Positions 39,460-64,000 are shown, counted from the stretch's first letter. The stretch is 64,000 nt of DNA from Bryobacterales bacterium (GCA_003162425.1 PMOK01000092.1:4377-68376), one strand, 5' to 3'. Notes: generated by a model from the letters alone, not told the origin. A program made the numbers and translations.

Positions 39460-42400
39460 CTACTGTAACTCGACGACCGCGGTGTTAGCGAACAACGCTC
39501 CCACGGCGATGGTCAAAGCGTTTGGCCCCGAGGGCAGCCCCGTGGGCACAACCACATCTATCTGGTTCAGCCCGGCGAACCCAGGCGCGAGACCTGCGAA
39601 CAACACTTTCGCGTTCACGCCGCCGATGGTTACCAGTGGCGTAATCTGATCCATCGCCAACGGGTTGGTGGGAGCGCCAGCGTCGTCGGCCGGCGCATTT
39701 GAGACCGGGCCGAGACCCGTTGCGAATATCTCCACAATCTCGCCGCCAGCCGCTTGCGAAGCCACGCTCACCGGTTGCCCATTCATATGGACCACAGCTG
39801 GGTCGCCAGCCGCATCCGTCAAGAACAAGCCTGGCGATTCCGGCGTAATGGGCACGCCGCTGACTTCCGCCACCCCGGTCGCCGTTGAAACGAGAATCGT
39901 GGCCGTGGTCTCGCCGGCCAGTTCATAGGGCACGAAGAAGTTGATCTGGAGGGGCGACGCGTAAAACAGCGGCGCGGCGATTCCGTTGATGGTCACCGAT
40001 GCGCCGCCCAGCGTCAGCGGCAGCGGAAATGTCGCTGCCGTCGCGGTGTTCAATGCCAGGTTCAGGCCGAACATGGTCGCGATGGAACCGATGCCGAGCG
40101 GGACTTTAGAAACCATAGGTGCCGCATTGACAACTCCAGCGCCAGTAAAGGCGGGCGCGCTAGTGGATGCCAATACTACACATGTGACGACGCCAGCAGG
40201 CGAATTGAGGCTCGTAAATATCAGCGATACCGGGCCAGCGTGTAGCGGCGTCCATACACCCGTATAGGTTCCGCCGCCCACATCCGTGAGGAGCACCGGT
40301 GCATCACCGGTAGTGAATGCAACTTGCACCGTCGCGCCGGTGACCGGCGAGCCTATCGAGCTGAGGATGGAGGCTTCGAGAGCAACCGGCACGCCCACAT
40401 TGGCGATGAAGTCGCCGGCTGGCTGAATGGGTTGTAGTGTATTTTCCGACGTCGCCGCCGTGGTCCCGGAGGAAACAACCAACGTCACAGGGATAATCAA
40501 TCCTGCGTTGGATGTTCCGGTAGCGCCTATCGCCACCTGACCTGTGTAACTGCCGGGCTGCAAACCAGTGAGGTTCGCCGTCACTGTGATATTCCCGTTG
40601 CCGCTTCCCGACACAGGCGATACCGTGAGCCACGTTCCACCCGAACTGGTCAGCGCGACGGCGCTCCACGAGAACGGTCCGGCATCCGAAGTTAAAGCAA
40701 TAGTCTGGCTGAGTGGAACGCTGGTGGATACGTTCGCGGGTGCAGTGAATAACACGCCACCAGGCATCGCGCTGAGCGTGCCCGGCAAGGTAGCGCTGCC
40801 CAGATCCAGCACAACAGGAACCAGCAGCGTATTTCCCGCGCCCGGGCTTTCAACCGAAATGTAGGCGACGTAATAACCCGCCGCGAGGCCGCTGGTATTG
40901 ACCGATACGGGAATGGAGCCAGGCGTGGCTCCGCTCGCGCCATTGAGCGACAGCCAGTTCATCCCGGTTGTCATGCTGGCGCTTGCGGTAAACGAAACTG
41001 CGGCACCCGTGGTGGTTGTGACAGGCAGCAATTGCGGGGCGAACGAACTGCCCGCCAAGCCACGGAATTCGAGCAACGGGACCGTGGATATCAGATCGGG
41101 CAGCGCCGAGAGGTTCAGGACAACAGCAACATTGGCCGGCGCCACTCCCGGGCTGCTGAAAGCGATATTGCCGAGATACTGCCCGGCAGCCAGGCCGGAC
41201 GGATTGATTTGTACCGTTACCGTGGACGGCACATTGCCGGAAGCGGAGCTGCCGGACGCGGGGGAAACCGAAAGCCAGGGGCTACCTGGGTCGGGCATCG
41301 CAGTCCAGGCAAGTGTTCCGGTACCTGCGTTTGGCACTTCCACTACGCGCGTGATCGGCGTAGTGGACCCGGCCGCTGCGTTCACGATGACCGCCGCCGG
41401 CGTCAGTGCGAACTCCGGGGCCGACGGAGTAACGACGTTCAGCGTCACCGCAACCATCTGATGCTGGCTGCCGGAGGTCACCGTAATCGTACTCGGATAG
41501 CTGCCTGGCGCCAGTCCCGCTGCGTCGATGCTGGCGGTCATCACGGCGGGCGTGGCGCCCGAAGTTGCTCCCAACGTGAGCCAGGACGGATTGCCGCTGT
41601 CCGACGCCTTCCACTGCAGCGTGCCCGAACCCGTGTTGGATACGGCGATGCTCGCGGGCAGCGGTTTGCCCCCGCCCTGCACCACCGTGAACGCCAGCGC
41701 CGGTGGCAACACCGATAGCTGCGCAGGAGCAGTGGGGGCTAAGCCATTTTCGAAGAAAGTCGCCACTTTACTCAATCCGCTTACGCTGGCCAAAATCACG
41801 ATGGCTCCGGCGGCCGTGGGTGTCGCTGTTATCTCGGCCGTCCCGTTAAAGCCGGTTGTGACGTTCGTCGCGCTCAAAGTCGCGGAACCGGAAAATACAC
41901 TGAATGAGACCACTACACCGCTCATGGCGTTACCAAACTGATCATTCACTACCACCACCAGAGGCGCGGCGAACGCGTTATCCAGCGCGGCGGTTTGCTC
42001 ACTACCGCTCAATACAGTAATACTTGCGGGCTGCGGCGGAGGTGGCGGAGGGGGGGTGACAGTCAGGGTGCCATTGACGAAGGTGAACGTGTAATTGACC
42101 GCCGAAAGCGTCCCCAGCGCGGCAATGATGGGATAGTTGCCTACAGGCGACGACGCTGTAGCTGTGGTGGTCAGGCTGGGCGCCCCGCTTACCACGGCCA
42201 AAGTATCGCCATTGACGAAGCCGGTGATGGTGGCCGTAAATGTTGGCAGGGGCGCACCGGCAACTTTGCTGGCGTTGTTAGCGGTCACTGTCAAGACAGC
42301 CTTACTTACCGTACCTCCAGTGTTGGTCAGCGCGAAATTCGCCGTGGCGGGACTGGCTTGATCGGGCGTGGTTGCGCTGGCGGCGACAGTGTAGGGACCA

Positions 42401-45400
42401 CCGAGGATCATGTTTGCAGTGAACGGTTGAGCCGTGGCAACGCCGCTCGAGTTGGTGACCGCGGTATTCACTCCACCCGCGAAAGTTCCACTCGGTCCGG
42501 AACCAGGAGCCATGAACGTCACGGTGACGCCCGGCACCATGCTGGTGCATGCCGCGCACGATTCCGTTGCCGTGGCAGCGAGAGCAGTTCCGAACGTCGC
42601 GCCGACGCCGGCCGATTGCGGCGTTCCCTGCGTAGCAGACAGCGCAACTCCCTGAAGTTGAACCGCGCCGATATCAACCACACCATTCCTCAAGCGCAAG
42701 AAGCCAGTCCCGCGTTGGTCCGTATCGGTAGACAGAAAGCCCGCCGGATTCCCCGCACCCAGCGCCGGACTGTTACCGCCGGGCAACATGGTCTGAGTTG
42801 GTCCGCCGTTGTTCGCCAGCGCGCCCAGTTGCGGGTTCAGCGGCGCGCCGGATGTTCCAACCTGGTCGCCATTGACGCCGTTTGTGATTCCCGTGATGCC
42901 GGTAGAAATGCCGATCAGATTGTTCCCGCCGTCGGTGAATGTGCCGGAGCCATCGGGATTGGGGTTGGAGCTTGCATCCGTATTTCCCGCGAGAATCGTG
43001 TTGGTCAACGTGCAGGTCGTGCCGGACACGACGACAATGCCACCGCCCAAATCGCTTGGCGCCGTGCCGGACTGACTATTGCCCGAAATGGTGCTGTTCT
43101 TTGCGACGGCCGTACCGGCGTTGTAAATCGCGCCGCCCCCGCCACTCCCGGCGTTGGAAAGATCCGTCACGGTGTTTCCGGCAATCGTGGAACCAGTAAT
43201 GGTCAGCGATGATACGTTAGCGATCGCGCCGCCCACCCCGCCCACCACATTTCCCTCCGCGGTATTCCCCGAAAAGGTGCTGTCAGTGATCGTCGCCGTC
43301 CCCTGATTGTACAGGCCGCCGCCAGCGCCACGAGTGCCGCCGCCAGCGCCGCCGCTCGCGCGATTGTTCGAGATGGTGCACTGGTTGACAGTCAAAGTTC
43401 CGCTGTTCCAGATGCCACCTCCGAGCCCATCAGCGAGCGTCACGTTTCCAGTGATGACGCAAGAGTTCAGGGTTAGTGTTCCGGGATTGAAGATGGCCCC
43501 GCCAGCTCCGGCGCTGCCATGCTGGATGGTCACACCGGAAATGGTCACCGTGGTCGCGCTGCCGATATCAAACACTGGGCCCGCGCCGCCACCGTCAATG
43601 GCCAAGCTGGAGGCGCCCGGTCCGGTAATGGTCATGCTCTGGGTAAGCTGCGGTAACGCGCTGAGCAAATTGATGGTCCCGGTGACGGCGAACGTAATAG
43701 TGACACCGCCCGACGAAGTGTTGGCGTTGGTAATCGCCGCGCGTAGCGAGCCCGGTCCGCTGTCAGCCAGAGTGGTCACCACCAGCGACACCGCGGTTAC
43801 GGAGATGACGCCGGACGTGCCCGTTATGGAGGAGGTCACCGTGTCGGTAGCGGTGATAGTTTGGTTCCCTGTGGTCCCCAGTGTTGCCGAAAATGTTCCG
43901 GTGCCGTTGGTCAACGTGGAGTTGGCCGGCAACGTCGCCGAGCCGTCGCTGCTGGTGAAATGTACCGTGCCCGCATATCCTGTGGCAGTGTTGTTGAACT
44001 GATCGAGCGCCGTGACCGTGAAGTTGAATGAGGCATTTTGCGCCTCCGAACCCGGTGCAGTGACGCTAAAGTGGGTGGCCGCCGCCGGATTAACCGTGAT
44101 TGTGCCCGACGTGCCGGTAATCGAAGAGGTCACCGTGTCGGCAGCGGTGATAGTTTGGGTCCCCGCCGTCTTCAGTGTGACCGAAAATGTTCCGGCGCCG
44201 TTGGTCAGCGTCGAGTTGGCCGGCAATGTTGCCACACCGTCGCTGCTGGTGAAATGCACGGTGCCGCTATATCCCGTGGCGGTGTTGCTGAACTGATCGA
44301 GCGCGGTGACGGTGAAGTTGAAAGCTGTTCCCGCGGTGTGCGGCGACGACGCTGAGACGGTAAACGTGGTAGCTGCTGCCGGATTTACCGTGATCGTTCC
44401 CGACGTGCCGGTAATGGAAGGCGTTACCGTATCGGTTGCCGTGAGTGTCTGCGTGCCCGCCGTCTTCAGCGTGACCGAAAATGTTCCGACGCCGTTGGTC
44501 AGCGTGGAGTTGGCCGGCAATGTTGCCACACCGTCGCTGCTGGTGAAATGCACAGTGCCGGCATAGCCCGTAGCGGTGTTGCTGAACTGATCGAGCGCCG
44601 TGACGGTGAAGTTGAAAGCTGTTCCCGCGGTGTGCGGCGACGACGCTGAGACGGTAAACGTGGTGGCTGCCGCCGCATTTACCGTGATCGTTCCCGACGT
44701 GCCGGTAATGGAAGAGGTCACCGTATCGGTAGCGGTAATTGTTCGGTTCCCTGCCGTCTTCAGCGTCACCGAAAATGTCCCAACGCCGTTGGTTAACGTG
44801 GAGTCGGCCGGCAAGGTTGCCGAGCCGTCGGTGCTGGTGAAATGAACGGTGCCCGTATATGCGGGCGTGGTGTTATTGTTAAGATCCACGGTTGTCACGG
44901 TGAAGTTGAAGGCTGTCCCCGCCGTCTGTGGCGACGACGCCGAGACGACAAACATGGTAGTTGGCCCTGGAGTATCCGTGATGACATTGCTTGTTCCAGT
45001 AATCGAGGAATTCACCGAATCGGTCGCCGTGATGGTGAACGTTCCCGACTTCCTGGGGGCGACATTGAACGAGCCGGTTCCGTTCGTCAGCGTGACGGGG
45101 TTGCCGTTCGAATACACGAGAAATGGGTCTTCTGTGCTGGTGAGATTTACGTTTCCGGCATAACTGGTAAAAATATTGCCGCGCTGGTCCAGGCACGTGA
45201 TGGTGATCGAATCTTGATTGAAACCCACCACAGGCGTCCCCGCGACAACGGAGAAGCTGGTGGCCGCGAGCGCGGTCACCGTAAGGGTGGCGCTGGCCGC
45301 CGTACCCGGCCCGGCTTCGTTCGACGTGACGGTGCTAGTGGTGACGATGATTGCTCCGCTGGCGGTGGAGAGGGCCTGTGCTCTGACAGGCACGTCGCAC

Positions 45401-45726
45401 GATTCGCCCGCCGCAAGCGTAACGCCGGAGAAATTAAAGCCGTGTGGGTTGGATCCACCGCTGCCAGCGCAAGTGACGGAACCAAAGCTTGACAGGGTGA
45501 TACTCGCCGGAAAGCTGACGCTAAAGGCGATGCCCGTTAAAGTATCAGAGCCGTTGGGATTGGAAATCGTGACGTCGTACACTGTAGTATTCGTGCCGCC
45601 AGCCACAACCGTCGACGGATTGAAGCTGGCACTTAACGTCGCTGGGACTTGGGCAAAAGCGTGCCCAACGCAAATCGTAAGAAGGGCCAGTGACAACCAA
45701 GGCGCGCGCAGTCTAAGACAGATCAT
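39460..45726 (-). CDS. Giant secreted repeat protein (Ig-like repeats, beta-helix, MBG, BACON-like, TIGR03437)
   Basis: A 2088-residue exported protein. The start at 45726 gives a signal peptide (LSLALLTICVGHAFAQ) with GTGAGG upstream; a longer frame to 45810 is not needed. Domains in order: a DUF11-like region (about 25-150), Ig-like filler repeats (about 150-640) including four units of 98 residues (VSASSPHTAGTAFNFTVTAL, then DQFSNTATGYxGTVHFTSSD), and a right-handed parallel beta-helix (about 645-1010; SGSTIAGNTVTDLS). An MBG-type domain (about 1140-1220), a polyproline hinge, several BACON-like domains (about 1330-1760) and a TIGR03437 C-terminal domain (about 1865-2088; ATMFGLNLA, PLQINFFVPYEL, VEIFATGLGPV) complete it. 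The likely role is adhesion or glycan binding at the cell surface; the exact role is unknown. Confidence 0.85.
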   Translation of the reverse strand: MICLRLRAPWLSLALLTICVGHAFAQVPATLSASFNPSTVVAGGTNTTVYDVTISNPNGSDTLTGIAFSVSFPASITLSSFGSVTCAGSGGSNPHGFNFSGVTLAAGESCDVPVRAQALSTASGAIIVTTSTVTSNEAGPGTAASATLTVTALAATSFSVVAGTPVVGFNQDSITITCLDQRGNIFTSYAGNVNLTSTEDPFLVYSNGNPVTLTNGTGSFNVAPRKSGTFTITATDSVNSSITGTSNVITDTPGPTTMFVVSASSPQTAGTAFNFTVTTVDLNNNTTPAYTGTVHFTSTDGSATLPADSTLTNGVGTFSVTLKTAGNRTITATDTVTSSITGTSGTITVNAAAATTFTVSASSPHTAGTAFNFTVTALDQFSNTATGYAGTVHFTSSDGVATLPANSTLTNGVGTFSVTLKTAGTQTLTATDTVTPSITGTSGTITVNPAAATTFTVSASSPHTAGTAFNFTVTALDQFSNTATGYSGTVHFTSSDGVATLPANSTLTNGAGTFSVTLKTAGTQTITAADTVTSSITGTSGTITVNPAAATHFSVTAPGSEAQNASFNFTVTALDQFNNTATGYAGTVHFTSSDGSATLPANSTLTNGTGTFSATLGTTGNQTITATDTVTSSITGTSGVISVTAVSLVVTTLADSGPGSLRAAITNANTSSGGVTITFAVTGTINLLSALPQLTQSMTITGPGASSLAIDGGGAGPVFDIGSATTVTISGVTIQHGSAGAGGAIFNPGTLTLNSCVITGNVTLADGLGGGIWNSGTLTVNQCTISNNRASGGAGGGTRGAGGGLYNQGTATITDSTFSGNTAEGNVVGGVGGAIANVSSLTITGSTIAGNTVTDLSNAGSGGGGAIYNAGTAVAKNSTISGNSQSGTAPSDLGGGIVVVSGTTCTLTNTILAGNTDASSNPNPDGSGTFTDGGNNLIGISTGITGITNGVNGDQVGTSGAPLNPQLGALANNGGPTQTMLPGGNSPALGAGNPAGFLSTDTDQRGTGFLRLRNGVVDIGAVQLQGVALSATQGTPQSAGVGATFGTALAATATESCAACTSMVPGVTVTFMAPGSGPSGTFAGGVNTAVTNSSGVATAQPFTANMILGGPYTVAASATTPDQASPATANFALTNTGGTVSKAVLTVTANNASKVAGAPLPTFTATITGFVNGDTLAVVSGAPSLTTTATASSPVGNYPIIAALGTLSAVNYTFTFVNGTLTVTPPPPPPPQPASITVLSGSEQTAALDNAFAAPLVVVVNDQFGNAMSGVVVSFSVFSGSATLSATNVTTGFNGTAEITATPTAAGAIVILASVSGLSKVATFFENGLAPTAPAQLSVLPPALAFTVVQGGGKPLPASIAVSNTGSGTLQWKASDSGNPSWLTLGATSGATPAVMTASIDAAGLAPGSYPSTITVTSGSQHQMVAVTLNVVTPSAPEFALTPAAVIVNAAAGSTTPITRVVEVPNAGTGTLAWTAMPDPGSPWLSVSPASGSSASGNVPSTVTVQINPSGLAAGQYLGNIAFSSPGVAPANVAVVLNLSALPDLISTVPLLEFRGLAGSSFAPQLLPVTTTTGAAVSFTASASMTTGMNWLSLNGASGATPGSIPVSVNTSGLAAGYYVAYISVESPGAGNTLLVPVVLDLGSATLPGTLSAMPGGVLFTAPANVSTSVPLSQTIALTSDAGPFSWSAVALTSSGGTWLTVSPVSGSGNGNITVTANLTGLQPGSYTGQVAIGATGTSNAGLIIPVTLVVSSGTTAATSENTLQPIQPAGDFIANVGVPVALEASILSSIGSPVTGATVQVAFTTGDAPVLLTDVGGGTYTGVWTPLHAGPVSLIFTSLNSPAGVVTCVVLASTSAPAFTGAGVVNAAPMVSKVPLGIGSIATMFGLNLALNTATAATFPLPLTLGGASVTINGIAAPLFYASPLQINFFVPYELAGETTATILVSTATGVAEVSGVPITPESPGLFLTDAAGDPAVVHMNGQPVSVASQAAGGEIVEIFATGLGPVSNAPADDAGAPTNPLAMDQITPLVTIGGVNAKVLFAGLAPGFAGLNQIDVVVPTGLPSGPNALTIAVGALFANTAVVELQ
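43793..44968 (-). repeat. Four tandem 294-bp coding repeats
   Basis: The marker CCGAAAATGTTCC recurs at 43887, 44181 and 44475, with a one-base variant at 44769, an exact 294-bp period (98 codons). The middle copies are almost identical over long stretches. A shorter, more diverged unit lies further upstream in the gene. Confidence 0.85.
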
Positions 45727-45982
45727 CGGAACCTCACGGAAGCGTTCGCTCTCAAAGAAGGGATTGTAGAGATATTCGTCGATGCGGCCTTTTCGATTGC
45801 GAGGGAGCAAATCCTATCGAAGGCATCTTACGTACATAGTCTCGCACAAGCTAGTGCAGAACAAACTGGTACTGAAGTCATTAGTACATCGGAACCTACA
45901 GTACTAACAAACTGGGTAAATGATGCTTCTGTGGCAAGGTTGATCCTTCGAGCCTGCTGGCCACGTCTGGCATCATGAATGG
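45727..45982. promoter_or_regulatory. AT-rich divergent regulatory region with GTACT/AGTAC words
   Basis: This 256-bp gap separates the giant protein gene from the divergent PQQ dehydrogenase gene. It is clearly more AT-rich than its surroundings. GTACT-N9-AGTAC (45869-45887) is followed by AGTACT (45900-45905), and CGTAC occurs at 45831. No clear -35/-10 pair stands out. Confidence 0.4.
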
Positions 45983-53388: not shown

Positions 53389-54999
53389 ATGAAACTCCTG
53401 GACCCCACTCGCCGCTTCCACCGCCGGGCTTTTTTAGCCGGCTCCGCCACCACGGCCGCATCGCTGCTCTTTGCTGAAGAGCTTTTCGGCGCACCGGATG
53501 CTGACTCCACGAAGCCGAATCCAGCGCTTGAAAAACTGGCCGCGATCGCGCTCGCCGAAGCTAAAAAGCAAGGCGCCACCTACTGCGATATCCGCATTAA
53601 CCGTTATCGCAATCAATTCTCGGGATATCGCCTGTCGCCGGAACGCGACGGCTCCAAGACCGACGAAGTTCCCTTCGTGAACGACGGCACCAGTTTCGGA
53701 TTCGGCGTCCGCGTCATCGCCAAAGGCCAGTGGGGATTCGCCGCGTCGCCGCTGGTTACGCCTGCCGAGATTGCCCGTATCACGCGCGAGGCTGTAACGG
53801 TGGCGAAGGCCAACTCCGTACTCCAAGCCCAGCCGGTGGAACTGGCTCCCACCAAAGGCTACGTCGACCGTTGGACTTCGCCCTTTGAAAAAGATCCGTT
53901 CGAGGTGCCGGTGGACGAGAAGCTGGAATTGGTGCACGGGGCAACGAGAACCGTCAAGAAAAATCCGAAGGTCTTCAGCGCTTTCGGCGGACTTTTCTTC
54001 CATTCCGAAGATAAATACTTCGCTTCCACGGAAGGTTCGTCAATTCAGCAGCTCATTATCCAGTCGAATCCTTTTCTGAACGCTAACGCCGTTGATTCGC
54101 AGAAAGGGATTTCGCGCGACCGTTCCTATCAGGTTGCTCCGCAAGCGCGCGGTTGGGAATACGTGTTGATGAGCAACATTGGCGAAAACGCTCGCCGGAT
54201 TGCCGACGAAGTAGTGGAACATCTATCGGCTCCGCCTGTCACGGCGGGCAAGAAGGACCTGGTGCTGCTTCCCAGCCACCTATGCTTGACGATTCACGAA
54301 TCCATCGGCCACTCTACTGAGCTAGATCGCGCGCTCGGCTACGAAGCCAATTACGCCGGCACCAGCTTTCTCACCACCGACAAAATGGGCAAGTTCCGCG
54401 TAGGCAGCGACGTGGTGAACTTCTTCGGCGACCGCACCACGGAATTTGGAATGTCCACCGTGAAGTATGACGACGATGGCGTGAAAACCATGCGCTTCCC
54501 CATCATCGAAAAAGGAATTTTCAAGCACTATCAGACCATCCGCGACCAGGCGCACCTGATTGGCGAGACGGAATCGCGCGGATGCTGCTATGCGGACTCC
54601 TGGTCCAGCGTTCCGTTCCAACGCATGCCCAACGTCTGGCTCGCGCCTTCTGAGAGCGATACCACCGCCGACGATTTGATCGCCGGTGTCGACGACGGCG
54701 TTCTGATCGAGGGCACCGGCAGCTACTCCATCGATCAGCAGCGTTACAACTTCCAGTTTGGCGGTGACGCGTTCTGGGAGATTAAAGGCGGCAAGAAGCG
54801 CGGCATGATTTCTCGCGTGGCTTATCAAGCCCGCACGCCCGATTTCTGGCAGGCCTGCGATGCTATCGCCGGCCGGGCTTACTGGCAACAATACGGCCTG
54901 TTCAACGACGGCAAAGGCGAGCCGACGCAGATCAACGCCATGAGCCACGGATGCGCACCGTCGCGCTTCCGCCAAATCAACGTGCTGGTAACGGACTAA
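53389..54999 (+). CDS. tldD: TldD-family metalloprotease with Tat signal
   Basis: A 536-residue protein of the TldD/PmbA family. The metal-binding HExxxH motif (LTIHESIGHSTELDRALGYE) marks the catalytic TldD-type subunit. Blocks FVNDGTSFGFGVRVIAKGQWGFAAS, EGTGSYSIDQQRYNFQFGGD and the terminal SRFRQINVLVTD fit the family. The N-terminus RRFHRRAFLAGSATTAASLLFAE carries a twin-arginine motif followed by a hydrophobic core, so export is predicted; classical TldD is cytoplasmic. The usual partner gene (tldE) starts 12 bp downstream. Together TldD/TldE cleave small unfolded peptides such as microcin precursors in other bacteria. Confidence 0.88.
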   Translation: MKLLDPTRRFHRRAFLAGSATTAASLLFAEELFGAPDADSTKPNPALEKLAAIALAEAKKQGATYCDIRINRYRNQFSGYRLSPERDGSKTDEVPFVNDGTSFGFGVRVIAKGQWGFAASPLVTPAEIARITREAVTVAKANSVLQAQPVELAPTKGYVDRWTSPFEKDPFEVPVDEKLELVHGATRTVKKNPKVFSAFGGLFFHSEDKYFASTEGSSIQQLIIQSNPFLNANAVDSQKGISRDRSYQVAPQARGWEYVLMSNIGENARRIADEVVEHLSAPPVTAGKKDLVLLPSHLCLTIHESIGHSTELDRALGYEANYAGTSFLTTDKMGKFRVGSDVVNFFGDRTTEFGMSTVKYDDDGVKTMRFPIIEKGIFKHYQTIRDQAHLIGETESRGCCYADSWSSVPFQRMPNVWLAPSESDTTADDLIAGVDDGVLIEGTGSYSIDQQRYNFQFGGDAFWEIKGGKKRGMISRVAYQARTPDFWQACDAIAGRAYWQQYGLFNDGKGEPTQINAMSHGCAPSRFRQINVLVTD

Positions 55000-55011
55000 C
55001 AGGAGCCGAAC

Positions 55012-56349
55012 ATGCTGACCAAACAGGACGCCAAAAATCTCGCGGACAAGATCCTGAGCTACTCGAAGCTCCCCGGCTGCAGTGTGAATATCAACGCTTC
55101 GGAAACCGTCTTCATCCGATTTGCAAACAATGGCATCACCACTTCCGGCTACAGCCTGGATCAAGGCGTAAGCATCGAATCCACCACCGAGGACAAGCGG
55201 ACTGGAAGCGCCAACGTCAGTGAGTGGTCGGACGAGGCGCTGCGCAACGGTGTGGAACTGGCAGAACGGCTGGCCCGGATCTCGCAACCCGACCCCGAAT
55301 TCATGCCGGCGCTCGGCCCCCAACAATATCCCGAACTCCCGAATTTCGATGTCAGCACTGGAAATTCGCGCGGCGATGCTCTCATCGGCCACGTCAAGGC
55401 CGTCATCGATGGCGCGCGCGGCGCGAAGCTCACCACCGCGGGCTTCGTGCAGCGTTCCGCAAACTGGATCGCGGTGGCGAACAAAGCCGGGCTCTTCGGA
55501 TATCACCAATACACCGACTCTACGCTCACCAACACCATGCGCAATGCCGGCGGAACCAGCTCCGGCTGGTCCACGCAGATCTCTACCTCCATCAAAGATC
55601 TCAACGGTCAAGATGCGGCGCGGATATCCGTCGAGAAATGCGTCCGTGGCGATGGCAAGAAGCGTCTGGAGCCTGGGAAATACACCGTGATTCTTGAACC
55701 GGCCGCTGTCAGCGATCTCATCGGCTACCTGGGATTCAGTTTCGGCGCTCGCGATGCCGAGCAAGGGCAATCCTTCCTCAGCAAGAAGGCCGACAAGCCG
55801 GGCCAGACGTTGCTCGGCGAAAAACTTTTCCCTGAATATATTACTCTGCGCAACGATCCGTTCAATCCCAAGCTAGCCTCGTCCCCTTGGAGCGGCTCAC
55901 TGCTCCCCAACGAGAAGATCGCTTGGATTGAGAACGGTGTGGTGAAAAACCTCTTCTACGACCGCTTTTGGGCTGAAAAAGCCGGCAAGAAACCTACGCC
56001 ATTTCCCAGCAACCTGATTCTGGATGGACAAAACCATACGCTGGAGGATCTCATCAAGTCCGCCGATAAGGCCCTGCTTGTTACGCGCCTCTGGTATATG
56101 CGCGTCCTGCAGCCGCAGACCATGCAGGTCACCGGTCTGACGCGCGACGGTGTTTTTCTGGTGGAAAAAGGTAAGGTGACGGATCCAGTGATGAACTTCC
56201 GTTGGAATGAGAGCCCGGTTCGCGTGATGCAGAACACGAAGATGTTGGCCGCGCCGGTGCGAACCCAAGGCGCTGAGGCTGGATCATCGCTCGCGCCCGC
56301 CATCCTGGCCACGGATTTCAACTTCGCCAGTATTTCCGACGCAGTGTAA
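55012..56349 (+). CDS. tldE: TldE/PmbA-family subunit
   Basis: A 445-residue partner of TldD. It lacks the HExxxH motif, as expected for the non-catalytic TldE/PmbA subunit. The blocks ADKILSYSKLPGCSVNINAS, EWSDEALRNGVELAERLARI and GLTRDGVFLVEKGKVTDPVM fit the family. It has no signal peptide: the N-terminus MLTKQDAKNLADKILSYSKL is soluble. Because TldD next to it carries a Tat signal, it may be carried across as a complex with TldD (hitchhiking) or the annotation of export for one of them is wrong. AGGAG lies upstream of the ATG. Confidence 0.86.
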   Translation: MLTKQDAKNLADKILSYSKLPGCSVNINASETVFIRFANNGITTSGYSLDQGVSIESTTEDKRTGSANVSEWSDEALRNGVELAERLARISQPDPEFMPALGPQQYPELPNFDVSTGNSRGDALIGHVKAVIDGARGAKLTTAGFVQRSANWIAVANKAGLFGYHQYTDSTLTNTMRNAGGTSSGWSTQISTSIKDLNGQDAARISVEKCVRGDGKKRLEPGKYTVILEPAAVSDLIGYLGFSFGARDAEQGQSFLSKKADKPGQTLLGEKLFPEYITLRNDPFNPKLASSPWSGSLLPNEKIAWIENGVVKNLFYDRFWAEKAGKKPTPFPSNLILDGQNHTLEDLIKSADKALLVTRLWYMRVLQPQTMQVTGLTRDGVFLVEKGKVTDPVMNFRWNESPVRVMQNTKMLAAPVRTQGAEAGSSLAPAILATDFNFASISDAV

Positions 56350-56424: not shown

Positions 56425-56896
56425 CGCCTCACGGGCAACCGGAAATCCTACCTGTTCCAGCAACCGCGTGAATCGCGGGTGCGATCGCAGCTCATCATAG
56501 ATCGGATCAGCGCGCAGATAGATCATGAAGTATGATCGCTCTTCCAATCCCCGCTCCAACCGGTCTAGCGCCCTATCGGTTTCTCCTAAGCCAAGATGAA
56601 TCACCGCAAGTTGCGGTGATGCAAGGTGACGGGCCGCGGCCGCTTGTTCCATCTCCTCCAGAATCTTTCTGGCCTCGCCCGGCCGTCCGGCACGTGCGTA
56701 GGCGTAAGCCAGCGCCGCGCCGGCCTGCCGATTCCCCAAAATGCCGCCGGGCCTCTCGCGCCGCATCCTCCGATGTCAGGCCCTTCGCAATCAGTTCATC
56801 AGTACGGGCTTCGATGTGAAATTCCAGTTCGGCATCCAAATCGCGATCCAAGCGAACGCTCCGAAATACGTTCGTCAGGCGTGAAAACCAGGACAT
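56404..56896 (-). pseudogene. Chimeric remnant: ADOP permease N-terminus joined to a TPR protein C-terminus
   Basis: From an ATG at 56896, directly after the ADOP permease stop, one frame reads MSWFSRLTNVFRSVRLDRDL through EAARHF-type helices (AREARRHFGES), nearly identical to the first ~55 residues of the permease upstream. The homology stops at RRHFG. In another frame the DNA then encodes GNRQAGAALAYAYARAGRPG, LGETDRALDRLERGLEERS and LRADPIYDELRSHPRFTRLL. This is a typical C-terminal TPR tail of acidobacterial TPR kinases or regulators. The join lies near 56740 at a shared GG-AA-CGG. Neither half is complete. The stop is at 56404. Confidence 0.8.
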
Positions 56897-59569
56897 TTAT
56901 TCCTCGCGCAATGCGACGATGGGATCCACATGCGCGGCGCGGAATGCGGGTGGTAGCGCGGCCAGTGCGCAGGCGAGTAGAAAACTCGCGAGTGGCAGCG
57001 CTAGGCTCCAGAAATCCGACGCCTTCACTTCGAACAGCAGCGTCGAGACAAATCGGCCGAGAGCGAATCCTCCCGCGATTCCGATTCCCAAGCCAACCGC
57101 GATCACCAGCATCACATCCGATATCACCAGACGAACCACGCCCAACTGCCGCGCGCCGAGCGCCACGCGAATGCCGATTTCCTTGGTCCGCCGCACCACC
57201 GAGTAGCTGAGCACGCCGTACAATCCGATGGCGGCCAGCACGACTGCAACGATGGCGAAGAATCCGGCCAGCAGCGCCATCAACCGCTCGCGCAACACGC
57301 TGTTATTGATTCGCGTGGATTGCAACGTCACGTTGGTGACGCGCAGTCCGGCGTTAGAGTGATTGATCGCTTGCCGTATTGCCGGGGCGACAGCCATGGG
57401 ATTACCTGCCGTGCGTACCTCCATGACCCCGTCCGGCTGGCCCCACGGCCCGTAGACGGTCGGAGAGGTCGCTTCGCGCAGATTATTGTACTTCGCATCC
57501 TGGACAACGCCAACGATTTCTTGCGGGGCCGGACGCGGATCATCATCGAACATTTCGAACCGCACGCCTAACGGATTCTCTCCCGAAAGATAATGACGCA
57601 CGAACGCCTGGTTGACGACTACCGCAGTGGATTCCGGCCCCATGTCGCGCGCGGCAAGATCGCGTCCGTCCACCAGGCGCATCTGCATAGTCTCGAAGAA
57701 CCCCGTTGAGACCGGCAGATAACGGGGCTTGACAGATTCCAGTTGGTGGCCTGGGAAGCGAATTCCCGGCCGCATCACCCAGCCGTAATTCCCTCCAACC
57801 AGGGCCGTCATGGACATGCCCGCTGCTTGCACTGTTGGAATCCGGCGCACGCTGTCGAGTAGTTGTAAAGCAGCCAGGTGCGCTCGATCGTTCCTGGCCG
57901 GGTTCTTCATCCGTATATCAAACAGCGCAACACGGTCCTTTGAGAACCCGAGATCCACGCTCGTGAGCTTTTGGAAGGAGATCAGGAGCAGACCGCCGAG
58001 GAACAGAACGACGAAGCTGAAGCCGACTTGCGAGGCTAACAGAGGCCGCAGCAAGCCGATCTTGCTGGACTGTTTTGCGCCGCCCGCCTTCAACGCCTCA
58101 TGTGGAGAAACGCCTGAAGCGTGCAGCGCGGGCGCCAGCCCGAACAGAAGCGTGGTCGCGATGCCGATGAGGGCGACGAACCCGAGCACGCGCCACCCGA
58201 TCTGAAGGTCGAGGTAGGCAGGAAAGTCGGAGGGCGAAAGCAGGTTGACAATGGAGGGCGCTGTGGCAGCGGCAATGGCCAATCCCAGAAGACAAGCCCC
58301 GCCCGCCATCAGGCCGCTCTCTATAAGCAGTTGCTGCATCAGCCTCCCGCGTCCTGCCCCAATCGAGATCCGCATGGCCATCTCGCGTTCCCGCGCGGCA
58401 GCGCGAGCCACCAGCAAATTTGCGATGTTGGAACAGGCGATTAACAGAACCAGCGCAACCACCGTTGCCAGTATCCACAATGGCCGTTCGAAATCCATAC
58501 GAACCATAGAGGGACTGCCACTCGCTCCTGGACTCAGGATGAGCTGTGCGTTCTTGTAGTTCGGCAATTGATCCGGCGGTCCGCCTGACCCAATGAATTC
58601 ATCGGTGTGATCGCGGCGATAATTCGTAAATACGACCTGAAGGGCTTGCCTGGCCTGCTCGGACCGAACACCCGGTTTCAAGCGCCCCCAAACCTGATCC
58701 CAATCCGAAGAGGGACCTCGAGATGCCGACGCGTTCGTGTTCGGCAACCACACGTCCATTCGATAACCTGGAATCAGGCCGTCAAATCCGTTCCGAACAA
58801 CGCCGACGATCTGGAACTGCCTGCCTTGGAAACCCAGCCAGCGGCCGAGAACTGTCGGACTGGATCCGAAGCGCCGGACCCAGAAACTGTGGTTCAGGAC
58901 CGCGACTCTGCGGCCGTCGTCGGAGGCAGTCAGCACGCGGCCGATCGCAGGCTGTACCCCGAGAATCCGGAACCCGTCGCCGGAGATCCGCTGCGATCGG
59001 ACGCTCTCTTCCTCGTCGCTAGAGTCGTCGAGCGTAATCGGCTGAAGTGGCCCAGGATAGCTGATTCCGAAGAGTTCCACCTTCTGACCTGACGATTGAA
59101 CAAAACGGTCAAAAAGCGCAGCGCCGGTATAGGTGCTTTCGATCAGCGACGGGCCAAACGTGGGATAAGAGCAGTAAATCAGCTGCCCTGGATCCGGCAC
59201 CGGTAAGGGCCGAAGAATCAATGCGTCGATCAGTGAAAATGCCGCTGTGCATGCGCCAACCGCGAGCGAGAGAGAAAGCACGGCCGCAGCAGTAACCCCG
59301 GCGTTCTTGCGCAGCATTCGCAGACCGAAGCGTGTATCTTGAAACACGGATTCCAGCCACGAAATCAACTTGACCTCACGGCTCGACTCTCGCAGCAGCA
59401 GCCGGTTGCCAAAATGCCGCCGGGCCTCGCGCGCCGCATCTTCCGGCGACATGCCCTTCGCGATAAGCTCCTCAGTCCGTGCTTTGATGTGAAATTCCAG
59501 CTCGGCATCCAAATCGCGATCCAGCCGGCCGCTTCGGAATACGTTCGTCAGACGTGAAAGCCACGACAT
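56897..59569 (-). CDS. ADOP-type ABC transporter permease (MacB/FtsX-like)
   Basis: An 890-residue membrane protein of the acidobacterial duplicated orphan permease type. An N-terminal helical segment (MSWLSRLTNVFRSGRLDRDL; about 1-70) precedes a MacB-like periplasmic core domain and FtsX domains. Transmembrane helices flank each half (AAVLSLSLAVGACTAAFSLI; LATVVALVLLIACSNIANLL; ILLFGLAPALHASGVSPHEA). The C-terminal triplet (FFAIVAVVLAAIGLYGVLSY...KEIGIRVALGAR) closes the second FtsX. No ATPase gene is adjacent, hence 'orphan'. The PadR-type regulator gene lies 10 bp upstream on the same strand, as is usual. A truncated duplicate of its start follows directly downstream. Confidence 0.9.
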   Translation of the reverse strand: MSWLSRLTNVFRSGRLDRDLDAELEFHIKARTEELIAKGMSPEDAAREARRHFGNRLLLRESSREVKLISWLESVFQDTRFGLRMLRKNAGVTAAAVLSLSLAVGACTAAFSLIDALILRPLPVPDPGQLIYCSYPTFGPSLIESTYTGAALFDRFVQSSGQKVELFGISYPGPLQPITLDDSSDEEESVRSQRISGDGFRILGVQPAIGRVLTASDDGRRVAVLNHSFWVRRFGSSPTVLGRWLGFQGRQFQIVGVVRNGFDGLIPGYRMDVWLPNTNASASRGPSSDWDQVWGRLKPGVRSEQARQALQVVFTNYRRDHTDEFIGSGGPPDQLPNYKNAQLILSPGASGSPSMVRMDFERPLWILATVVALVLLIACSNIANLLVARAAAREREMAMRISIGAGRGRLMQQLLIESGLMAGGACLLGLAIAAATAPSIVNLLSPSDFPAYLDLQIGWRVLGFVALIGIATTLLFGLAPALHASGVSPHEALKAGGAKQSSKIGLLRPLLASQVGFSFVVLFLGGLLLISFQKLTSVDLGFSKDRVALFDIRMKNPARNDRAHLAALQLLDSVRRIPTVQAAGMSMTALVGGNYGWVMRPGIRFPGHQLESVKPRYLPVSTGFFETMQMRLVDGRDLAARDMGPESTAVVVNQAFVRHYLSGENPLGVRFEMFDDDPRPAPQEIVGVVQDAKYNNLREATSPTVYGPWGQPDGVMEVRTAGNPMAVAPAIRQAINHSNAGLRVTNVTLQSTRINNSVLRERLMALLAGFFAIVAVVLAAIGLYGVLSYSVVRRTKEIGIRVALGARQLGVVRLVISDVMLVIAVGLGIGIAGGFALGRFVSTLLFEVKASDFWSLALPLASFLLACALAALPPAFRAAHVDPIVALREE

Positions 59570-59990: not shown

Positions 59991-60620
59991 GTGGTGCCCG
60001 ATTTTTGTACCTGCGGTGCGCAGTTGCCGCCCGACGCCCGATTCTGCCATAAGTGCGGAAAGCCGCAGTACGATTATCCGGGCCTGGTGGAAGAACCAGT
60101 TGCGCCGGTGCCTCCCCCCTTACCAACACCACAAGTCCAGACGCCGCTCGAAATCAGTTTCCACAACCGGCTCGCGGTTCGCATTGGTTTTTTGGCCGCA
60201 TTGACGGCCGTTCTTCTATTCATGTTTCCGTTGCCTTTTCCATTCCTCCGACTGCTTTTGGCGTTCATCGCCGCGGGATTTCTCGCCGTTTTCGCTTATA
60301 CGCGGCGCACGGGACAGATGCTCAGCATTCGCAGTGGCGCGCGCATGGGCTGGATCACGGGCATCTTCTCATTCACCTTCGTCACCATTCTCTTCACCGT
60401 GGCGATGGTGGCGATTTCGAACGAAGGTGGACTGGTGAAATTCTTCCGCAGCCAATTGCCTCCCAACGATGCGCGCACCGAGCAGTTAACGCAAGCTCTC
60501 AATAATCCCGCCACCTTAGCCGGCGTCCTGGCGTTCTCCGTCATCGTGCTGTTCGTCATTCTCACGGCGCTGCCAGTGCTGGGCGGTGCGCTGGGCGCGA
60601 AGGTTCTCGCAAAGGAATGA
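59991..60620 (+). CDS. Zinc-ribbon membrane protein
   Basis: A protein of about 209 residues. A zinc ribbon near the N-terminus (CTCGAQLPPDARFCHKCGKP; CxC and CxxC) is followed by a proline-rich linker (PVAPVPPPLPTPQ). Four transmembrane segments (IGFLAALTAVLLFMF, LRLLLAFIAAGFLAVFAY, WITGIFSFTFVTILFTVAMV, LAGVLAFSVIVLFVILTALP) complete it. The start is uncertain: GTG at 59991 or 59994 is favoured, since the longer frame from 59958 begins before any ribosome binding site. Its stop overlaps the ATG of the S41 peptidase gene (ATGA), so it opens a five-gene operon. The function is unknown. Confidence 0.7.
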   Translation: MVPDFCTCGAQLPPDARFCHKCGKPQYDYPGLVEEPVAPVPPPLPTPQVQTPLEISFHNRLAVRIGFLAALTAVLLFMFPLPFPFLRLLLAFIAAGFLAVFAYTRRTGQMLSIRSGARMGWITGIFSFTFVTILFTVAMVAISNEGGLVKFFRSQLPPNDARTEQLTQALNNPATLAGVLAFSVIVLFVILTALPVLGGALGAKVLAKE

Positions 60621-61933
60621 TCCGGGCAGGCCTGCTGGTATCGGCAGTTCTCGGAGCGGCGGCATCCATAGGCTGCGCGCAGACCGCGACCTCCTCAGTT
60701 GCCAGCGAGCTCACCGCCAAGCAGCGCCAGCTCAATATCGATTCCTTTGAATACGTCTTCGCCGCGGTTCGCGACAAACATTGGCAAGTCAAACCGGCGG
60801 GTCTGGACTGGCAAGCCGTACATGACGAGCTACGCCCGGCCATCGAAAAGGCCTCCACTATGCAATCCGCCCGCGCCGTTTTGAACGACATGCTGGGCCG
60901 CTTGCATGAGACGCACTTCGCCATCATCCCCAGCGATCTTTATTCCGATCTGGAGGGTTCCAGCGCCAAAGGTGAAATCACCACCGGCATGGATGTGCGC
61001 GTGGCGGGTTCTGACGTGCTGGTCACATCGGTCGAAGCAGGCTCCGCGGCTGCGCGGGAAGGCGTCCAGACGGGTTGGCAAATTCTGAAGATTGGTTCTA
61101 CGGATCTTGCCCCGGTGGTCGCGAAACTAAACGAAATCTACGCTACATCCACTTTGCGCGAACTGGTCATGTGTCGGGCAATCCTTGCTCGCCTGGATGG
61201 CAAGCCCGGAGAATCCGTCACCGTGGAATTTTTGGACGGCGCAAATCAGCGCGTAACCAAATCCCTCACTGAGGGAAAACCGCGCGGTGAGTTGTCCCAA
61301 TTCGGATATTTGTATCCTATGCACGTTTGGTTCGATTCTTCAAAAGTCGGTCCCGGCGACATCGGCTACGTGAAGTTCAATATGTTTCTAGATCCCACGC
61401 ACGTGATGAACCTGTTCGGCGAAGCTGTCGAAGCCTGCAAAACATGCCGGGGCTTCATCATCGACCTGCGCGGAAATCCGGGCGGTATCGGCGCCATGGC
61501 CATGGGGATGGCGGGCTGGTTCATCGACCAACCAGATCAGCGGCTCGGCACTCTTTACATGCGCGATACCACGCTGAAGTTCGTGGTGAATCCACGCGTG
61601 TACACCTTCGCGGGACCGCTCGCAATTTTAGTGGACGGCGCTTCGGCCTCCACCTCCGAGATCCTCGCGGGAGGTCTGAAAGATCTGGGACGCGCGCGCA
61701 TCTTCGGCACACACACCGCAGCCGCCGCATTGCCCTCCGTATTTGAAATGCTTCCGAATGGCGACGGCTTCCAGTATGCCATCGCCAATTACATTTCTGA
61801 AGGCGGAAAGCCGCTGGAAGGCCTGGGCGTAACGCCGGATGTGGAAACGCCGTTGACGCGTCAGGCTCTTCTAGCGGGCAAAGACCCGGCCCTAGACGCA
61901 GCTATCAAATGGATCACGAACCAGAGACATTGA
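60617..61933 (+). CDS. Exported S41-family peptidase
   Basis: A 438-residue protein with a signal peptide or lipoprotein-like start (LLVSAVLGAAASIGCAQ). A helical N-terminal region precedes a PDZ-like stretch (about 130-215; SAAAREGVQTGWQILKIGST) and the S41 core. The core has GFIIDLRGNPGG, then the nucleophile Ser in DGASASTSEILAGGLKDLGR. In CtpA-type enzymes a Lys follows about 25 residues later. Here the spot reads GTHTAAAALPSVF, which lacks it, as in some S41 subgroups that use another base. It is the second gene of the operon, coupled to the first. Confidence 0.85.
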   Translation: MIRAGLLVSAVLGAAASIGCAQTATSSVASELTAKQRQLNIDSFEYVFAAVRDKHWQVKPAGLDWQAVHDELRPAIEKASTMQSARAVLNDMLGRLHETHFAIIPSDLYSDLEGSSAKGEITTGMDVRVAGSDVLVTSVEAGSAAAREGVQTGWQILKIGSTDLAPVVAKLNEIYATSTLRELVMCRAILARLDGKPGESVTVEFLDGANQRVTKSLTEGKPRGELSQFGYLYPMHVWFDSSKVGPGDIGYVKFNMFLDPTHVMNLFGEAVEACKTCRGFIIDLRGNPGGIGAMAMGMAGWFIDQPDQRLGTLYMRDTTLKFVVNPRVYTFAGPLAILVDGASASTSEILAGGLKDLGRARIFGTHTAAAALPSVFEMLPNGDGFQYAIANYISEGGKPLEGLGVTPDVETPLTRQALLAGKDPALDAAIKWITNQRH

Positions 61934-61964
61934 ACGAGAAACGAGCAACGAGAAACGAGAAACG
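61933..61964 (+). repeat. Short tandem repeat of ACGAGAA in an intergenic spacer
   Basis: The spacer between the S41 peptidase and the next gene is almost entirely an imperfect run of four ACGAGAA/ACGAGCA units. It may supply the purine-rich ribosome binding region before the ATG at 61970. Confidence 0.6.
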
Positions 61965-61969
61965 GCTTT

Positions 61970-62737
61970 ATGGATTGGTTCTACGGGGATTCGGGCAAAC
62001 AGATCGGACCGATCGACGACGCCTCCTTTGAAGGGTTGGTGACAGCCGGAATCATCCGTGACGAGACGCTAGTCTGGCGCGCCGGAATGGCAAACTGGCA
62101 GCCATACCAGACCATTCGTCCCGTGGCACAGCCGACAGCCCTCGAAGGCGCTCCAGGCGATATGAAATTTTGCTCGGAGTGCGGACGCTCGTTCGCGCCA
62201 GATGATCTGGTTGCATTTGGGAACTCGCTCGTGTGCGCCGAGTGCAAGCCGCTTTTCACGCAGAAGCTCCGCGAAGGTATTCGGCCGGCCGGGGCGATAC
62301 ACTACGGCGGATTTTGGATCCGCTATCTCGCTGTATTCGTAGATAGCCTGATCTTTTCCGTCGTTATCGTGATCGTCTTCGCCGTCGGGCTCATGTTGTT
62401 TCCGGTGGATTGGGCCAACCTGGGACGCTCACCGGCAGGCCTCTTGCAATTGTTGGAGCTCGAAGGAGTGGTCTGGCTCTCCGCTCTGCTCTTTGCGGCG
62501 ATTTACGAAACATTGATGATTGGCCGCTATGCCGCTACACTTGGGAAAATGGCGTGCGGCCTGCGCGTAGTGATGAGCGACGGCGGCAAAGTGACCTATG
62601 GCCGTTCCTTGAGCCGACACTTCGCGAAAATTCTTAGCGGCTTCATGATGTTCATCGGATACATTATGGCGGGTTTTGATGACGAAAAACGCGCTTTGCA
62701 CGATCGCATCTGCGATACTCGTGTGATCAAGAAATAG
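61970..62737 (+). CDS. GYF-like, zinc-ribbon, RDD-family membrane protein
   Basis: A 255-residue protein with three parts. An N-terminal GYF_2-like domain (about 1-55; WFYGDSGKQIGPIDDASFEG, RDETLVWRAGMANWQP) is followed by a small zinc ribbon (about 68-100; CSECGRSFAPDDL, CAECKPLF). An RDD membrane domain (about 110-255) has FWIRYLAVFVDSLIFSVVIV and YETLMIGRYAATLGKMACGL, with the terminal ALHDRICDTRVI. The RDD family includes small ion or solute transporters. It is third in the operon. Confidence 0.82.
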   Translation: MDWFYGDSGKQIGPIDDASFEGLVTAGIIRDETLVWRAGMANWQPYQTIRPVAQPTALEGAPGDMKFCSECGRSFAPDDLVAFGNSLVCAECKPLFTQKLREGIRPAGAIHYGGFWIRYLAVFVDSLIFSVVIVIVFAVGLMLFPVDWANLGRSPAGLLQLLELEGVVWLSALLFAAIYETLMIGRYAATLGKMACGLRVVMSDGGKVTYGRSLSRHFAKILSGFMMFIGYIMAGFDDEKRALHDRICDTRVIKK

Positions 62738-62743
62738 CCTTCG

Positions 62744-63325
62744 ATGCCGCTCGCGCCGGAACATCTCGCATGCTCCCGCTGCAACACGCCGATCCCGCCT
62801 GCAGACTGGAATCGCGAACACGCCTTTTGTCCGTCCTGCCGCGCGCCGGTTCTGGCGCTGGTTTTCCCGGCGTTCTTCTCGAAGCGCGGAACCGCAACCA
62901 GCGGAACTCCGGTGCTCGAGGCCGGCGAAGCGAGCTGCTTCTACCATCCTCTGAAACGCGCCGTGGTTCCCTGCGATCGCTGCGGCCGCTTTCTGTGCGC
63001 CTTGTGCCAGGTGGAATTTCTCGGCCAGAACTGGTGCCCGCGCTGCATCCAGGCCAGCAGCGAAAAAGGCCAGCTCGCTCAATTGGACCCAAGCCGCAAG
63101 CTGTACGACAACCTGGCGCTGATTCTCGCGACCTTCCCTGCCCTGCTCGTCTGGCCGACAATTATTACCGCCCCGCTCACGTTGTACGTCGTGGTTCGCT
63201 ACTGGCGCGCGCCCTCCAGTATCCTGCCCCGCACCAAGATTCGTTTCTACATCGCAGCTCTGCTCGCCACCATCGAGATTGGGGCCTGGATATGGTTAGT
63301 GCTGTTCCTCATCTACCGGCGATGA
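62744..63325 (+). CDS. B-box-like zinc-binding membrane protein
   Basis: A 193-residue protein with two cysteine-rich modules. The first is CSRCNTPIPPADW with CPSC. The second is a B-box-like CFYHPLKRAVVPCDRCGRFL followed by CALCQVEF and CPRC. Three transmembrane segments follow (ALILATFPALLVWPTIITAP, LTLYVVVRYW region, FYIAALLATIEIGAWIWLVL). It starts six bases after the RDD gene stop and overlaps the next gene by four bases, so it is translationally coupled. The role is unknown; the shared zinc modules across the operon suggest a common assembly. Confidence 0.72.
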   Translation: MPLAPEHLACSRCNTPIPPADWNREHAFCPSCRAPVLALVFPAFFSKRGTATSGTPVLEAGEASCFYHPLKRAVVPCDRCGRFLCALCQVEFLGQNWCPRCIQASSEKGQLAQLDPSRKLYDNLALILATFPALLVWPTIITAPLTLYVVVRYWRAPSSILPRTKIRFYIAALLATIEIGAWIWLVLFLIYRR

Positions 63326-64000
63326 CAACGAAACTCCAGTATTCGCGGATGCCGGGACGCTCCGGACTCGTCGTGCGCGATTTCTTATGGATGAGCGCTG
63401 ATCATTTGTTGAGCGTCCGCCGGAATCCGTTTTCCGAATCCTACCGGCGATTTTATTTCGCCGATACCCAGGCGATCGTCGTTACAGAACTTCCAAATTC
63501 GCTGGCGCCCACTGGCCTTACCGCAGCCGTTTTGTTCATTGTTACGGCCGCTGCCCTGATGTACACTTGGCATCCGGTGTGGGCAAGTTTATGCGCACTT
63601 CTCTCGCTCGTCTCCTTCTTCGTGAGCTGGCGAAGCGCCGACTGCGCCTGCTATCTGCAGACTTCGGTTAGCACTGAGATGCTACCTTCCTTGCGGCGGC
63701 GGGTGGATGCCGCGAAAGCTACGGCGCTTTTAAAGGCGGAAATCGAGAGGACCCAGGGCAGCGTAAGCGCGGAGGTTTTGGAGATGGGCCCTCCCGTTGC
63801 GCGCACCGCACGATTGGCCACATCGAAACCAGCGCTTCGCCATTCGAGCGGCCAGATGCACTGGATGGCGTTCGCACTGATGATAGTCCGGGGATCCATC
63901 AGCGCCATTTCGCTCAAGGGCGCGGCGTCCATTCCACTCGGTATTGCCGCCACAATTGTCGGTACTGCAATTCTGCTGCTGTTAATTCTGGCGGCCATTC
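63322..64000 (+). CDS. Membrane protein, partial (runs off the window)
   Basis: The ATG at 63322 overlaps the stop of the preceding gene (ATGA). At least 226 codons are open to the window end. Visible: a soluble N-terminus (RSGLVVRDFLWMSADHLLSV, RRFYFADTQAIVVTELPNS), two close hydrophobic segments (LTAAVLFIVTAAALMYTW, ASLCALLSLVSFFVSW), a charged loop (LRRRVDAAKATALLKAEIER) and another hydrophobic stretch at the end (IPLGIAATIVGTAILLLLIL). I recognise no family. It is the fifth gene of the operon. Confidence 0.7.
   Translation, partial: MTTKLQYSRMPGRSGLVVRDFLWMSADHLLSVRRNPFSESYRRFYFADTQAIVVTELPNSLAPTGLTAAVLFIVTAAALMYTWHPVWASLCALLSLVSFFVSWRSADCACYLQTSVSTEMLPSLRRRVDAAKATALLKAEIERTQGSVSAEVLEMGPPVARTARLATSKPALRHSSGQMHWMAFALMIVRGSISAISLKGAASIPLGIAATIVGTAILLLLILAAI

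Follow-up and report, generated by a model that had tools for sequence, protein, structure and literature searches.

A ten-gene membrane module with MoxR, DUF58 and SpoIIM abuts a zinc-ribbon/S41 peptidase gene pair in a Bryobacterales genome

The stretch of 64,000 nucleotides analysed here (the window) lies inside contig C221 of an 8.7-Mb assembly and ends within a densely packed array of same-strand genes, the fourth of which is 99% identical to its relative in a Bryobacterales MAG. A sequence-only reading of positions 59991-64000 had described five genes tied together by two ATGA overlaps and short gaps. This was borne out, with five ORFs on the + strand, ATGA overlaps at 60617-60620 (genes 1/2) and 63322-63325 (genes 4/5), and intergenic gaps of 36 bp (genes 2/3) and 6 bp (genes 3/4). 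The array does not end at gene 5, however: past position 64000 it continues with seven further genes on the same strand, mostly overlapping by a few bases. In the following, genes 1-12 are numbered in array order, and 'the module' refers to genes 3-12.

59991-60620, + strand: gene 1, zinc-ribbon membrane protein with a GTG start; outside the conserved module
60617-61933, + strand: gene 2, exported S41 peptidase; outside the conserved module
61934-61969, no strand: intergenic seam between S41 gene and module, with a run of the heptamer AACGAGA (4.6 copies, 61933-61964)
61970-62737, + strand: gene 3 (module gene 1), GYF_2 domain, CxxC..CxxC zinc site and RDD membrane domain
62744-63325, + strand: gene 4 (module gene 2), zinc ribbon, B-box-like zinc domain and two TM segments
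63322-64293, + strand: gene 5 (module gene 3), PH/PTB-like domain (predicted) split by a TM hairpin, followed by a helical TM bundle; the window ends at 64000, the rest is taken from locus L009
64290-64592 (extended window coordinates), + strand: gene 6, small B-box protein with TM segment
64589-66190 (extended window coordinates), + strand: gene 7, TM-DUF4129 protein
66174-67280 (extended window coordinates), + strand: gene 8, DUF4350 protein
67277-68236 (extended window coordinates), + strand: gene 9, MoxR AAA+ ATPase
68242-69579 (extended window coordinates), + strand: gene 10, DUF58 protein
69576-70580 (extended window coordinates), + strand: gene 11, SpoIIM protein
70577-71347 (extended window coordinates), + strand: gene 12, RDD protein

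Gene 12 is followed by a methyltransferase gene and then, on the opposite strand, by genes for a flavin reductase and a homogentisate dioxygenase, the latter two names being given by eye from sequence. No terminator-like site was found where the S41 gene meets the module. The heptamer run was considered as a mark of module insertion and rejected, because L010 has the same seam but lacks the repeat, and because AACGAGA-type runs occur at no fewer than 49 other places in this genome, i.e. represent a dispersed simple repeat. Elsewhere in the window, positions 56573-56896 and 56897-59569 hold an intact MacB-type permease gene and an ORF directly downstream that copies its first 55 residues (85% identity) before diverging, and is probably the remnant of a tandem copy. 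A tandem pair of TldD/PmbA-type metallopeptidase genes occupies 53389-56349, and a 2116-residue ORF on the - strand (39460-45810), with MBG_2, BACON_2 and Ig-like (Big_1) domains, encodes a large, probable surface protein.

Three independent anchors (SpoIIM, gene 5 and gene 4, the genome scan with gene 4 using an alignment of seven rows) brought in the same cluster, and annotation with profile HMMs yielded 98 non-redundant loci. All ten genes are present in 46 of these, in each case in identical order and on one strand, with median intergenic gaps of -10 to +9 bp. Most incomplete loci run off the contig or the stored flank; part of the set is missing despite room in seven (L035, L043, L061, L078, L091, L098, L104), the module is interrupted by 7 kb in L057, and L017 has kept only DUF58-SpoIIM-RDD. 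The flanks examined, 66 upstream and 32 downstream, contain no gene outside the ten that different phyla share, so the borders of the module are sharp. Its anatomy is near certain. The earlier reading of a membrane operon, tightly coupled and with zinc modules repeated on the cytosolic side, stands for genes 3-5, which form the front of the ten-gene module and keep their order in relatives within it, but the five genes as one system are not supported.

The module spans about eight named phyla: the genome scan named Verrucomicrobiota, Thermodesulfobacteriota, Acidobacteriota, Hydrogenedentota, Nitrospirota, Lentisphaerota and Poribacteria as hosts, further host records are labelled Myxococcota or Pseudomonadota, and cultured strains (Trichlorobacter thiogenes, with the complete module in L090, and Desulfonema magnum) are included. 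It was found in only 7-10 of 396 sampled phylum genomes, and this patchy distribution indicates that it is dispensable. In a MoxR-DUF58-SpoIIM tree the module forms one strongly supported clade, in which phyla are partly clustered and most Bryobacterales stand together, a pattern that would fit a module of old origin that was lost many times and transferred in some cases.

An important question is whether the ten genes belong together by function or only by inherited order. In three genomes from two other families of Acidobacteriota (G067, G286, G042), which form a long separate branch, the same families occur in permuted order (small B-box, DUF4129, DUF4350, MoxR, DUF58, SpoIIM, RDD, GYF-RDD, B-box), and two of them also give a weak match to gene 5. 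In this permuted version (L029-L031, L123-L125) the GYF-RDD/B-box/gene-5 block has moved from the 5' to the 3' end. In Desulfonema magnum, three sites of one chromosome hold the parts: the front four genes at ~2.2 Mb, the module-type MoxR gene (70%) at ~5.3 Mb and SpoIIM at ~6.7 Mb. Since its parts have been retained after permutation or scattering, the module would seem to serve a shared function, and such retention speaks for this beyond what inherited order alone suggests.

At the level of the individual proteins, Pfam agrees with the S41 peptidase, GYF and RDD identities proposed earlier (Peptidase_S41, GYF_2, RDD), and the Cys-rich zinc sites noted in three of the five proteins correspond to Cys clusters in genes 1, 3 and 4. 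Gene 3 matches GYF_2 at 7.5e-14 and RDD at 1.2e-26, and the four Cys of its zinc site are invariant in 10 aligned orthologues and at least 95% conserved in 69 relatives. The ribbon and B-box matches of gene 4 remain below Pfam cut-offs; 10 Cys and 1 His, however, are conserved to at least 95% in 86 relatives. With such conservation, the zinc sites of genes 3 and 4 are not due to chance. The zinc ligands of gene 6 are likewise at least 95% conserved across relatives.

The PH/PTB-like superfold is a seven-stranded barrel capped by a C-terminal helix. The AlphaFold2 model of gene 5 (pLDDT 75, pTM 0.48) suggests, with moderate confidence, such a domain interrupted by a TM hairpin: in VIA-align, residues 3-147 match the CCM2 PTB domain (Z 10.1; 94 aligned, 3.3 A), the Avo1 PH domain (Z 9.7; 79 aligned, 2.5 A) and a bacterial DUF1696 PH domain (Z 9.5; 85 aligned, 2.5 A). 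Foldseek gave no match below E 0.1 and Pfam no family for gene 5, a rhodopsin match (Pfam 0.02) being rejected as chance.

Five of the families, SpoIIM, DUF58, DUF4129, DUF4350 and RDD, are membrane proteins found widely in bacteria and archaea, and most of them are uncharacterised. In the module they accompany a MoxR protein that matches AAA_3 (PF07726) over its full length at 4e-63 and AAA_lid_2 at 1e-24. Across 53 relatives, conservation reaches 95% or more for the residues of Walker A (GVPG..KT) and of Walker B (LLADEINR). The protein also scores with PF20030 (bpMoxR), below the better AAA_3 match. The DUF58 protein (PF01882, 7e-20) has the family consensus D-x-[S]-R-L, in which D and mostly S are kept, in place of an intact MIDAS motif DxSxS, which casts doubt on metal-dependent binding of the NorD kind. 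SpoIIM (PF01944, 1.1e-36) is present in single copy in this genome, which has one clear DUF4350 and five DUF58 matches. Its model is all-helical (pLDDT 89) and its invariant residues are N204-G205, H231-G232, E235, E291 and K307; against solved PDB structures, no Foldseek match had E<0.1 and VIA Z did not exceed 8, with the matches listed covering mainly the N-terminal helices.

What might such an assembly do? MoxR/vWA pairs are ATP-driven remodellers of membrane complexes, as exemplified by NorQ/NorD (PMC9976466), and DUF4350-MoxR-vWA as well as SpoIIM with vWA/AAA+ neighbourhoods have been predicted to form secretion or membrane-remodelling systems (Makarova et al. 2015, PMC5898192). Based on this mechanism, these predictions and the family make-up found here, we tentatively suggest that genes 3-12 encode one multi-phylum cell-envelope machine for export or membrane remodelling, driven by MoxR/DUF58 and equipped with a cytosolic platform in which GYF, B-box/zinc-ribbon and PH-like domains, carried by membrane-embedded proteins, serve as receptors. 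A MoxR hexamer would dock on the vWA-like DUF58 protein, itself anchored by an N-terminal TM hairpin, and ATP-driven movements would be passed on to a membrane core that comprises SpoIIM, both RDD proteins and the DUF4129 protein. An extracytoplasmic domain would come from DUF4350, and the cytosolic GYF, zinc (B-box/ribbon) and PH-like domains could receive clients or adaptors. The work done may be the assembly or remodelling of a membrane complex, or export through such a complex. That the ten proteins form one complex, as well as its topology and function, is what we infer.

The main rival of this machine is a maturation chaperone like RavA/ViaA or NorQ/NorD, in which MoxR-DUF58 would remodel one enzyme complex encoded elsewhere (e.g. 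respiratory or transport), with the membrane proteins acting as docking factors. In the papers found, most MoxR-vWA pairs that have been characterised are indeed maturation or activation factors, and domains of the zinc and GYF kinds typically mediate interactions. However, nine membrane-embedded or membrane-anchored partners travelling as a block exceed what known MoxR chaperones use, and across phyla the module is not linked to any enzyme gene, so that we consider such a role rather unlikely.

Still less probable is an envelope ion-homeostasis or stress system with the RDD proteins as transporters or as regulators of membrane proteases. The B. subtilis membrane protein SppI, which PMC7568657 discusses alongside RDD proteins, acts within a membrane complex as an inhibitor of the protease SppA, and each module has two RDD proteins. 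Yet this leaves MoxR, DUF58, DUF4350 and DUF4129 unexplained, and the conserved set includes no protease gene.

A protease gene does lie directly upstream, and the sequence-only reading had, as one possibility, placed it at the outer face of a membrane complex. Gene 1 matches Zn_Ribbon_1 over the Pfam cut-off and has about four TM segments by hydropathy; gene 2 matches Peptidase_S41 (3e-28) and Tricorn_C1 (1.3e-6). In all 13 S41 orthologues compared, Ser (ASTSE) and His ([TS]H[FY]) are kept. The Ser-Lys dyad of CtpA-type (S41A) enzymes is incomplete: the Ctp-type catalytic Lys is absent in 13/13, its position being taken by Ala or Gly (TA[AG]AALPS or SA[AG]AALPS). Candidate tricorn-type (S41B) features of gene 2 are the Tricorn_C1 match and the conserved Ser and C1-domain His. 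With the Ctp Lys missing but Ser and the C1-domain His kept, the peptidase would act, if at all, like tricorn-type S41 enzymes.

That this peptidase is the outer-face enzyme of a five- or twelve-gene membrane complex is very improbable. The two upstream genes do share an ATGA overlap and the strand of the module, no terminator-like site separates them from it, and in the three same-genus genomes in which the pair stands 5' of the module (G000, G397, G398) co-transcription is possible. But S41 is absent from every other annotated module locus, and its orthologues (52-75% identity) occur in same-family genomes without the module, i.e. without a SpoIIM match. In G419 and G413 orthologue and module are both present on different contigs, and L112-L114 carry the zinc-ribbon/S41 pair without the module. 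In G396, of the same genus, the pair is followed after 12 bp by the very flavin reductase and homogentisate dioxygenase genes that flank the module in L010 and L012, thus representing an empty site. These module-free orthologues, separate contigs and the empty site led us to reject S41 as a module component; they contradict a conserved system, and at most a genus-level co-option may apply. The five genes are two separate units, the first of which, genes 1-2, is an independent neighbour resident in this genus.

Equally remote is a role in biological conflict (defence), as in the ternary systems with MoxR and vWA treated by Kaur et al. 2020, which the MoxR and vWA-like core, the patchy distribution and the PF20030 score recall, but which we reject as a PADLOC scan of the ten proteins gave no match, the ten families are fixed in 46 loci without a variable effector or a VMAP/iSTAND/FtsH third component, and DUF58, RDD and DUF4129 are unmentioned in Kaur et al. 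2020.

Overall, we give a probability of roughly 60% to two abutting units, i.e. a genus-resident zinc-ribbon/S41 pair next to a ten-gene membrane assembly, remodelling or export module with a MoxR motor. A fixed ten-part module is a parts list for one system, in which each orphan family gains nine named partners, and its cultured hosts make the long-open role of SpoIIM/MoxR/DUF58 clusters directly testable. In 5.39 million open papers, to which the search was confined, SpoIIM together with MoxR was found only in PMC5898192, and a combination of GYF, RDD, zinc ribbon and B-box was not found at all. The earlier statement that no characterised system has this order thus holds for searchable papers, but the core had already been predicted (PMC5898192), and mycobacterial annotation shows a related one (Rv3691-Rv3695); as far as searched, it is the ten-gene unit with its zinc/GYF/PH-like front that is undescribed.

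Among known systems, the B. subtilis DMP engulfment complex shares with the module the Pfam family SpoIIM; in contrast to that complex, the ten families include no SpoIID or SpoIIP homologue, and the hosts are mostly Gram-negative lineages. NorQ/NorD and RavA/ViaA are chaperones that pair a MoxR AAA+ hexamer with a vWA protein to work on membrane complexes, an arrangement proposed here for the module. Their vWA partners are soluble, however, NorD having a MIDAS, whereas the DUF58 protein is membrane-anchored with a degenerate MIDAS and has eight further membrane partners at its side.

Five of the ten module families recur in mycobacterial Rv3691-Rv3695 (DUF4350, MoxR, DUF58, SpoIIM, RDD), and the expression of these genes drops jointly in double-lysogen M. 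chelonae (log2 about -6 to -7; table in PMC8191103). Unlike in the module, mycobacterial Rv3694c (SpoIIM) lies on the other strand, and that table contains no GYF/B-box/PH-like front. L020 (1454-5633) and L021 (14358-18647), one of which is in the window's genus, likewise carry MoxR-DUF58-SpoIIM-RDD clusters of four genes in which SpoIIM runs against the other three, as the locus tags Rv3692-Rv3693-Rv3694c-Rv3695 suggest for mycobacteria.

Also close is the predicted archaeal/bacterial arCOG01314 system for secretion or membrane remodelling (PMC5898192), with which the module shares DUF4350 with an extracytoplasmic domain, a MoxR-family ATPase, a vWA-type partner and SpoIIM; DUF4350, MoxR and vWA stand in one operon, as that system is defined. 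Its Ig-like/S-layer partners have no counterpart, there being no Ig-like family in the ten genes and no flanking gene common to different phyla. In contrast to that system, the operon of the module unites SpoIIM and DUF4350 with DUF4129, a pair of RDD proteins and the GYF/zinc/PH-like front. To the system predicted by Makarova et al. 2015 it thus adds GYF, zinc and PH-like domains as a cytosolic front that is undescribed.
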